From NCBI GenBank assembly GCA_946410125.1, contig CAMJZF010000004.1:1-48070 (forward strand): 48,070 nucleotides of DNA, given 5' to 3'. The notes under the pieces were generated by a model that was given only the letters and a program-made list of their open reading frames with translations, had not been told where the DNA came from and did not search any database. This DNA comes from an uncultured Prevotellaceae bacterium. GTDB taxonomy: Bacteria > Bacteroidota > Bacteroidia > Bacteroidales > Muribaculaceae. The position numbers and the translations under genes were made by a program. Shown here piece by piece: positions 27,256-29,834 of this stretch; the first letter of the stretch is position 1, and each line of letters starts with the position of its first letter.

Positions 27256-29202
27256 TTAAAATTGAGATGCTTTAGGATGCTTGTGATTGTTCTCGAGAGT
27301 TAGCAAGAATTGTTTCCTTTCAACACCACTTGAATAACCGCCTAATGAGCCGTTTGACTTAATTACCCTGTGGCAGGGAATGATAATTGGCATAGGATTG
27401 ACACCATTGGCTTGAGCCACAGCCCGTGATGCCTTTGGATTGCCAACTCGCACAGCTTCCTCATGATAACTGATTGTTGTACCATAAGGAATATTTTTGA
27501 GAACGTTCCAAACCTTCATTTGGAACTCAGTGCCAACAAGATGTAGCGGCAAAGAGAACTCATGGCGTTCACCGGTAAAATACTCTTTGAGTTGCTTGAC
27601 ACAGTTATCAAGCAATGGAGTAGTGCTATTGCTTAACTCAAGGTTCATCTTTAATGCCAATGGCGAGAAATCAACGTTACCAAATTCTATTGAAACTATT
27701 CCGCATGTTGAAGCAGCAATAGACAGAGTACCAACTGGCGTGTCAATTGTGGTGTGGCAGAGTTTCCCCTCATTAACCGCTTTGATGCCCAAATTGGCAG
27801 CTCTTTCCATCATGAAAGCATAGGCTTGTTCATAATTGTTCCCAATAACCCCATCAAGAATGGCATCTTTTATTGCCTCCTTAATATCGCCCACAGGTCG
27901 TGAGGGAGCCAGACCAAATGTGTCCATGATTTCTTTACCGTCGACAGGCGGCTGAAAATTGCGCACACGGTCTTTCTCTTCAATATCAATGATTTTTTGT
28001 TTCACCAGCTCGTAATTCTCGCGGAAACGTTTCACTTTTTCCTGATTTTTGCTTGTGATGTCGGCTCGGCATAATATCATCAAATCGTCAATGTCGTCGC
28101 CAGCCTCGAATAGCATACGCCTCACCGCTGAGTCGGTAACCTCTTCTTCGACAAGAGCAATAGGTCGCATGTGTAGCCCCACGAGTTTTTTGACATATTT
28201 CATGTGCTCATTCATGGGTAATCGCATCTTGGAAAAGATGCGTGGTATCATCTTTTCACCCACGAAGTTGTGGTTGTGGAAAGTCCAGCCCTGCTTGTCA
28301 TCCCAGTGCTTTGTAATAGGCTTGCCTATATCATGCAGTAACGCAGCCCATCGAAGCCATTCGTTATCGCTGACGGCGGCAACATTATCGAGCACCTGCA
28401 TGGTGTGCAGGAAATTATCCTTATGTCCACGGCCATTAACAGTGTCAACACCTTTAAGGCGTGACAGCTCTGGGCAAATGAGAGGGAGAAGCCCAGACTT
28501 ATCAAGCAGCAGTATTCCAAGAGATGGAGAAGGCGAGCGCATGATTTTCATGAGCTCGTCGGCAATTCTCTCACGAGTGATTATATTGATGCGCTCTGCA
28601 TTACGCTTAATGGCATTGAAAGTGCCTTGCTCTATCTCAAAATTAAGTTGGGAGGCAAACCTAATTGCCCGCATCATGCGTAATGGGTCATCACTGAAAG
28701 TGATATCAGGGTCAAGGGGAGTGCGAATTAAACGCCGTTCCATATCACCGATTCCATCAAAAGGATCGAGCAACTCACCCCAACGATCTTTGTTGACCGA
28801 AATTGCCATTGCATTGATGGTAAAGTCGCGCCGCTGCTGGTCATCATTGAGCGTTCCGTCCTCAACAATAGGATTGCGGCTATTACGGTTATAAGATTCC
28901 CGTCGGGCTCCAACAAATTCCAGTTCCATTCCCATTGCTTTTACTTGTGCTGTACCATAGGTCTTAAACACAGCCAAGTGTGACTTGTTGCGACCAATCT
29001 TTTGGGCAACTTTTTTTGCCACTTCGATGCCGCTGCCAACAGTGACGAAATCGATATCCTTAGATTTCCGCTCCAGGAAAATATCACGCACATAGCCTCC
29101 CACGACATAGCATTCACGGTGCATGTCGTCGGCAACTGAGCCTACGATGGCAAAAACAGGATTGGACAGATGGTGGAGTATGTTTTCTTTGCTTGTGTTC
29201 AT
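27256..29202 (-). CDS. Fusion: CCA tRNA nucleotidyltransferase with HD domain + O6-alkylguanine-DNA alkyltransferase
   Basis: A 648-residue protein joining two normally separate enzymes. Residues 1-480 are a complete class II tRNA nucleotidyltransferase that builds or repairs 3'-CCA: VVGGYVRDIFL, SKDIDFV (catalytic Asp pair), RRDFTINAMA, DPDITFSDDPLRMMRAIRFA, then an HD domain with HTMQVLDNVAA and LLHDIGKP. Residues 481-648 are a full Ogt/MGMT: TIDTPVGTLSIAAS, FQMKVWNVLKNIPYGTTISY, NPKASRAVAQANGVNP and the alkyl-acceptor motif PCHRV (Cys near residue 610). The join is at about 27762 with no Met or stop in frame. I chose the ATG at 29202, which overlaps the nth stop by one base (TAATG). It would link tRNA maturation and alkylation repair in one chain; partners are not known to me as a common fusion. 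Confidence 0.9.
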   Translation of the reverse strand: MNTSKENILHHLSNPVFAIVGSVADDMHRECYVVGGYVRDIFLERKSKDIDFVTVGSGIEVAKKVAQKIGRNKSHLAVFKTYGTAQVKAMGMELEFVGARRESYNRNSRNPIVEDGTLNDDQQRRDFTINAMAISVNKDRWGELLDPFDGIGDMERRLIRTPLDPDITFSDDPLRMMRAIRFASQLNFEIEQGTFNAIKRNAERINIITRERIADELMKIMRSPSPSLGILLLDKSGLLPLICPELSRLKGVDTVNGRGHKDNFLHTMQVLDNVAAVSDNEWLRWAALLHDIGKPITKHWDDKQGWTFHNHNFVGEKMIPRIFSKMRLPMNEHMKYVKKLVGLHMRPIALVEEEVTDSAVRRMLFEAGDDIDDLMILCRADITSKNQEKVKRFRENYELVKQKIIDIEEKDRVRNFQPPVDGKEIMDTFGLAPSRPVGDIKEAIKDAILDGVIGNNYEQAYAFMMERAANLGIKAVNEGKLCHTTIDTPVGTLSIAASTCGIVSIEFGNVDFSPLALKMNLELSNSTTPLLDNCVKQLKEYFTGERHEFSLPLHLVGTEFQMKVWNVLKNIPYGTTISYHEEAVRVGNPKASRAVAQANGVNPMPIIIPCHRVIKSNGSLGGYSSGVERKQFLLTLENNHKHPKASQF

Positions 29203-29834
29203 TACTTCTTGCTGTAAAACTTGCAATATTGCTTTATGCCACACTCAAGGCAGTTGGGTTTGATGGCTTTGCACACATATCGCCCATGCAGCAACAACCA
29301 GTGATGGGCATTGTATCGGTCTTCTTCGGCAATATGCTTGGTTAGTGCTTTTTCAACTTCAATAGGCGTTTTGCCATTGGCAAGACCAATGCGATTAGAG
29401 ACACGAAACACGTGAGTGTCGACGGCAATCGCTGCCTTGTTAAAGACAACACCAAGAATGACATTGGCTGTCTTGTGACCAACACCAGGCAAGCTTACGA
29501 GTTCTTCCATGGTGTCAGGGACCTCACCGTTAAACTCATTGACAAGCATAGACGACATGGCTTGCAGATGGCGGGCTTTGTTATTGGGATAAGAAACACT
29601 GCCTATATACTTCAACAAGTCGTCATGAGAAGCATGTGACATCAACTCGGGACTTGGATAAGCCGCAAAGAGCGCGGGAGTTACTATGTTCACACGCTTA
29701 TCGGTACATTGTGCCGACAAAATTACAGCTACAAGAGTTTCAAAAGGATTAGTAAACTCAAGTTCGGTCGTGGGATTAGGCCGAGTTGCTTTGAAATAGC
29801 TGATAACAGCTTGGTAACGCTCTTTGATTGTCAT
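29202..29834 (-). CDS. nth: Endonuclease III (DNA glycosylase/AP lyase)
   Basis: A base-excision-repair enzyme removing oxidised pyrimidines. In 210 residues it has ILSAQCTDKRVN, the helix-hairpin-helix LVSLPGVGHKTANVILG with the catalytic Lys, the catalytic Asp in AVDTHVFRVSNRIGL, and the C-terminal [4Fe-4S] ligands spaced C-x6-C-x2-C-x5-C (CKAIKPNCLECGIKQYC). Length and order are standard. The stop shares a base with the start of the CCA-Ogt fusion gene, so nth and the alkyltransferase are coexpressed as a small DNA-repair set. No clear promoter box was found directly upstream. Confidence 0.96.
   Translation of the reverse strand: MTIKERYQAVISYFKATRPNPTTELEFTNPFETLVAVILSAQCTDKRVNIVTPALFAAYPSPELMSHASHDDLLKYIGSVSYPNNKARHLQAMSSMLVNEFNGEVPDTMEELVSLPGVGHKTANVILGVVFNKAAIAVDTHVFRVSNRIGLANGKTPIEVEKALTKHIAEEDRYNAHHWLLLHGRYVCKAIKPNCLECGIKQYCKFYSKK

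Follow-up and report, generated by a model that had tools for sequence, protein, structure and literature searches.

An in-frame fusion of a CCA-type tRNA nucleotidyltransferase and an O6-alkylguanine-DNA alkyltransferase in a genus of Muribaculaceae

Organization of the locus

The window examined here, a 48,070-nucleotide stretch of contig CAMJZF010000004.1 from an uncultured bacterium of the Muribaculaceae (assembly GCA_946410125.1), contains a gene in which two known enzymes follow each other in one reading frame. The N-terminal part (residues 1 to about 476) is a complete class II CCA-type nucleotidyltransferase with an HD domain, and the C-terminal part (residues about 480 to 642) is a complete O6-alkylguanine-DNA alkyltransferase (AGT, here called Ogt). 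A sequence-only reading had described the gene as a single 648-residue frame encoding a class II CCA enzyme with an HD domain and then a complete Ogt with a PCHRV motif, and both the frame and its Pfam domains agree with that description. The parts of the locus are listed in Table 1. Conservation was assessed in a set of 79 aligned fused proteins, comprising 71 of the 77 one-frame proteins of the window's genus (g1, 101 sampled genomes; the proteins of G008, G446, G448, G449, G450 and G453 were left out), 5 proteins from g68 and 3 from g63.

Table 1. Features of the fused gene and its surroundings (positions in the window)
Feature	Position	Strand	Details
Fused cca-ogt gene	27256..29202	-	648 codons and stop, single frame
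Nucleotidyltransferase head	28723..29112	-	Residues 31-160; Pfam PF01743; GGYVRD, DIDF, RRDFTINAM
RNA-binding neck	28462..28644	-	Residues 187-247; Pfam PF12627
HD domain	28060..28407	-	Residues 266-381; Pfam PF01966; H290 and D291 in 79/79
Junction, last CCA helix (457-470) to first Ogt strand (480-488)	27766..27792	-	Predicted structure
Ogt N-terminal (ribonuclease-like) domain	27541..27756	-	Residues 483-554; Pfam PF02870
Ogt DNA-binding/catalytic domain	27289..27528	-	Residues 559-638; Pfam PF01035
PCHRV active-site motif	27364..27378	-	C610, in 79/79 aligned fused proteins
nth (endonuclease III)	29202..29834	-	Overlaps the start of the fused gene
TAATG	27771..27775	-	Chance occurrence, outside the system

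The length of the segment that spans the junction (residues 463-484) is identical in 70 of the 71 aligned genus proteins; those of g63 and g68 have a longer one. One alternative is that internal initiation or proteolysis frees the Ogt half and that the fusion is only nominal. Every one of the 70 genus proteins whose segment is 22 residues long does have an in-frame ATG at the position of M464, but Met also occupies this position, as a residue of the tail, in 17/17 unfused CCA enzymes aligned with the window protein, and the other in-frame starts in the segment are scattered. Moreover, the junction block is predicted to be ordered rather than disordered (predicted local distance difference test score, pLDDT, of 93). 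We regard release of a separate Ogt as improbable.

Identity of the two halves

In the CCA half, GGxVRD, RRD and HD are present in every aligned protein and DxD in 78 of the 79; in the Ogt half, PCHR and R593 are present in all and Y579 in 78. We take GGxxR(D), DxD and RRD to be the motif set of the head of class II CCA-adding enzymes, and R593 and Y579, judging in part from the alignment, are presumably the counterparts of the arginine finger and the helix-turn-helix (HTH) tyrosine of AGT. In the human protein these residues are R128 and Y114, according to PMC10779285.

The N-terminal half has not only the head motifs of a class II CCA-adding enzyme but also its whole fold, with head, neck, body and tail. 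The C-terminal half has PCHR(V/I) with the reactive Cys, the arginine finger and the HTH tyrosine, and it scores 116.2 bits against the curated model TIGR00589 (cut-off 46.4 bits). The window protein has no Pfam match to the zinc/phosphotriester N-terminal domain of Ada and is thus not an Ada protein; its score against the Ada equivalog NF011964 is 109.8 bits, below the cut-off of 345. Likewise, a Pfam match to the endonuclease V domain is absent from the window protein, so it is not an AGT-endonuclease V fusion.

Selection was estimated from the ratio of nonsynonymous to synonymous substitution rates (dN/dS) in the 22 closest of 3081 pairs, which share genomes and are not independent. The CCA half gave 0.02-0.23 and the Ogt half 0.08-0.85, with 20 of the 22 Ogt values at or below 0.51. 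These ratios indicate purifying selection on both halves, and both predicted activities look alive.

It might also be proposed that the Ogt half removes alkyl groups from tRNA delivered by the CCA half. What speaks for this is the physical tie to a tRNA-binding enzyme and nothing else; the Ogt domain has the residues and fold of DNA-repair AGTs, and ordinary free Ogts occur in many unfused relatives. A role in tRNA repair thus seems highly improbable.

Occurrence of the fused gene

Searches of the 101 genus genomes revealed a PF01035 domain in 90, and in 82 of these it lies inside the cca gene, always as the only PF01035 match. The fused frame is uninterrupted, with at least 639 residues, in 77 genomes and cut or damaged in five: G421 (contig end), G046 (two contigs), G028 (run of N), G410 (assembly frame break) and G045 (head lost). 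Eight genomes (G015, G039, G040, G047, G266, G367, G378 and G423) have an unfused cca and an Ogt elsewhere; in G407, G419 and G444, whose cca is also unfused, the PF01035 search found no match. A cca of this type was not found in seven assemblies that are 62-83% complete (G017, G020, G023, G053, G054, G447 and G451), G017 having only a 36% relative, and the match in G452 ends at a contig end. Interruptions lie close to one conserved part of the CCA body in three assemblies (L097:5010-5110, a frame break; L157:120-260, a run of N; L155 and L156, contig ends), probably an assembly effect of mixed strains.

Beyond the genus, a full-length fused match is present in all 5 sampled genomes of g68 and in 3 of the 9 of g63, where a fourth genome (G209) has a fused fragment truncated at a contig end and five are unfused. 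Among the matches listed for the class (395 genomes) and phylum (296 genomes) samples, the window's own genome gave the sole full-length match; these lists give the best matches first and may lack fused proteins from outside the family whose CCA half has diverged strongly. Of 473 plasmid records with matches, none contained a single place that spanned 80% or more of the query. One-frame fusions also occur at 34 named public loci (L045-L077 and L079); as many of these duplicate records of the sampled genomes, they add no extra evidence. They are labelled Muribaculaceae, Prevotellaceae or Bacteroidales, and the source, where titled, is the rumen or other gut sites of ruminants. One fused locus (L069) is from Candidatus Sodaliphilus fimicaballi, a congener, and therefore the genus of the window is probably Candidatus Sodaliphilus.

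The fusion is thus common to most sampled species of the genus and is not a sequencing error. The domain order proposed for the window recurs in relatives, and the concern raised with that proposal, that this might be a single odd sequence, did not materialize. The window's genome (G000) is a metagenome-style assembly of 143 contigs, 84% complete, a circumstance that would favor an artefact of assembly or sequencing; recurrence in 79 aligned genomes and at the public loci leaves that explanation a negligible chance, and we rejected it.

G000 yielded no PF01035 match besides the fused gene and no other match to the CCA half of that gene. CCA is not encoded in 23 of the 27 distinct tRNA predictions of this genome (loci L243-L272), some of which look doubtful; on these grounds the CCA half should be indispensable, and, being the sole copy found, it is predicted to add C, C and A rather than A alone. 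The four predictions that end in CCA are, by ARAGORN, Gly-CCC, Glu-CTC, Arg-CCT and Pro-CGG.

Origin of the fusion

In G126 (g67), cca and a complete ogt are two genes that overlap by ATGA. This layout is a plausible progenitor type, a short step from an in-frame fusion, although it may be only an analogue of the progenitor, since the Ogt of G126 does not group clearly with the fused Ogts.

Trees were built with 32 of the 79 fused proteins (the genus having been thinned by identity) and 33 unfused ones. The Ogt tree separates the fused Ogts from those of six unfused g1 and five unfused g63 genomes, which belong to two other lineages; the short Ogt of G367, an unfused g1 genome, was left out. 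Fission as the origin of the unfused relatives is not supported, considering these placements and the three genomes in which no Ogt was found. Certain long-branched free Ogts disturb this picture: the 317-residue Ogt of G266 groups with the fused g1 Ogts and has a very long branch, that of G104 (g45) is nested in the fused subclade of the window, and two from Firmicutes are near the fused g1 proteins.

Constraining the fused Ogts to one clade was not rejected by the approximately unbiased test (p-AU 0.41 with 66 rows; 0.545 with 56 rows). The smaller set lacks ten rows, namely long branches including G104 and G266, rows outside the family and partial sequences; with it, one fused clade was recovered in 62% of 200 bootstrap trees, in a bootstrap that had not settled. 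For the CCA half, a clade of g1, g58, g63 and g68 was likewise not rejected (p-AU 0.40). In the free CCA tree, 6 changes between the fused and unfused states are needed (at least 5 by starred branches), and both unfused g1 groups lie in one half of the genus; all rows used from the other half are fused. The simplest reading of these trees is a single fusion after which the Ogt half was lost repeatedly, with other Ogt lineages represented in its place. The state changes of the free CCA tree may instead reflect several independent fusions.

Separate loss of the halves

In 11 congeners, cca stops at the usual place and lacks the Ogt half. The converse is seen in G045, where the nucleotidyltransferase head is gone from the fused gene (L154:3857-5314, plus strand), which still has the HD domain, the tail and Ogt; no Pfam match to PolyA_pol was found in it. 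The neck next to the deletion has diverged, which speaks for a real event rather than an assembly effect. Since the halves have been lost separately, the comparative data lean against an obligatory coupling between them.

G045 has a second CCA-type enzyme (L273, 1376-2776), about 36% identical and with its motifs in place. Its neighbors (L273:12-3375, plus strand) resemble, by eye, a macrodomain protein and a protein phosphatase, and the region is perhaps an acquired island. Places for a second CCA-type enzyme also occur in G005, G017 and G446 (L274-L276).

The sequence-only reading had suggested that alkylation could consume the protein that matures tRNA. Coupling is central to the related idea of a damage-dependent switch, in which alkylation of C610 would destabilize or re-pose the whole protein, lower CCA addition and slow translation during DNA alkylation. 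Alkylation destabilizes AGTs and in some organisms leads to their degradation, as stated in PMC10779285; no other CCA enzyme was found in G000, where most of the tRNA genes found need CCA to be added; and the junction is nearly constant in length. Against these points stand the 11 congeners without the Ogt half and the loss of the head with Ogt kept in G045, and the number of copies consumed would be small compared with that of a housekeeping enzyme. We consider such a switch unlikely. A related reading, a damage-responsive brake in which one-shot alkylation of C610 disables or destabilizes the sole CCA enzyme, cuts chargeable tRNA and slows growth until repair is done, appears quite unlikely.

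Gene neighborhood

The sequence-only reading had also pointed to nth as a repair gene preceding the fusion. It does overlap the start of the window gene; as a general partner it fails, as it directly precedes the fused gene at 15 of the 79 loci, all encoding proteins at least 77% identical to that of the window. This count is a lower bound, four loci having less than 700 bases upstream and most others about 1.5 or 3 kb. An nth-cca-ogt repair cluster as a general arrangement was therefore rejected, and the fusion persists where the gene neighborhood differs. Some of the neighborhood is nevertheless old, since 5 of the 11 unfused congeners have nth at a distance of 0.3-2.6 kb upstream of their cca. 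The TAATG near the join had been used to argue that two indels would be needed to undo the fusion. It occurs at 2 of the 79 fused loci, so its presence is a matter of chance and uninformative on indels, and it was rejected as a relic of separate genes.

Other observations concern a HAD hydrolase gene near cca. Its distance upstream of cca is 46 bases in G126; in the sampled genomes of g42, g45, g46, g58, g59, g65 and g68 and in G122 it is also upstream, on the strand of cca, at a distance of about 1.2-1.4 kb. In two g69 genomes, G128 (L175:2326-4419, plus strand) and G148 (L176:766-2805, plus strand), a HAD hydrolase and then a whole CCA enzyme occupy one frame of 680-698 residues; Pfam confirmation was obtained on L176 alone.

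Proposed function

We consider it probable that the gene encodes a constitutive bifunctional protein whose halves do their ordinary work independently. CCA addition in the cell would fall to the N-terminal 476 residues, and the C-terminal 165 residues would be its Ogt, which transfers an alkyl group from DNA to C610 one time, both activities residing in a single, constitutively expressed polypeptide. The gene would probably have arisen from an overlapping cca-ogt pair of the type kept in G126 by in-frame loss of the cca stop. It may have been kept in one Muribaculaceae subgroup because Ogt is thereby supplied continuously, at a fixed ratio to a housekeeping enzyme, and with neither half harmed. 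Engineered SNAP-tag chimeras are frequent among PDB entries, and in them human AGT is found at either end of other proteins.

Several observations weigh against such a protein. The CCA half is under the NCBIfam cut-offs of the named CCA equivalogs: the best of them, the actinobacterial model TIGR02692, gives 353.9 bits versus a cut-off of 438.8, and the others fall further short. The structure model fixes the mutual placement of the halves poorly (predicted template modeling score, pTM, of 0.68), and the near-constant junction length within the genus could hint at more than a passive tether. In addition, the fused Ogt is not always the sole one, as G122, a fused genome outside the genus, has a second, short PF01035 protein (131-residue frame), and the Ogt of G126 does not group clearly with the fused Ogts.

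What makes the fusion of interest is that, across a genus, a DNA-repair protein usable a single time is naturally joined to a tRNA enzyme expected to be essential. It would allow one to ask directly whether a suicide repair domain can deplete the enzyme attached to it, with natural controls among relatives in which the two proteins are fused, separate and overlapping, without the Ogt half, or without the nucleotidyltransferase head. For annotators, it is relevant that the sole Ogt domain found sits inside the cca gene in 82 of the 101 genus genomes.

Comparison with known systems

A CCA-Ogt fusion was not found described in the open-access literature, as far as its available text goes; subscription journals and database annotations were outside the search. 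The enzymes themselves are known, and their combination is new. Natural AGT fusions include the archaeal AGT-endonuclease V protein and AGT-2 of C. elegans, which has a histone-like part (PMC10779285). The present protein resembles them in having an alkyltransferase naturally joined to another protein, and differs in that a full two-domain Ogt is joined to an RNA enzyme. Unlike bacterial class II CCA-adding enzymes with an HD domain, it has a whole Ogt after the normal C-terminus and scores below the cut-offs of the named equivalogs. Unlike M. tuberculosis OGT, the C-terminal domain of E. coli Ada and human AGT, its alkyltransferase is not free-standing but tied to a tRNA enzyme.
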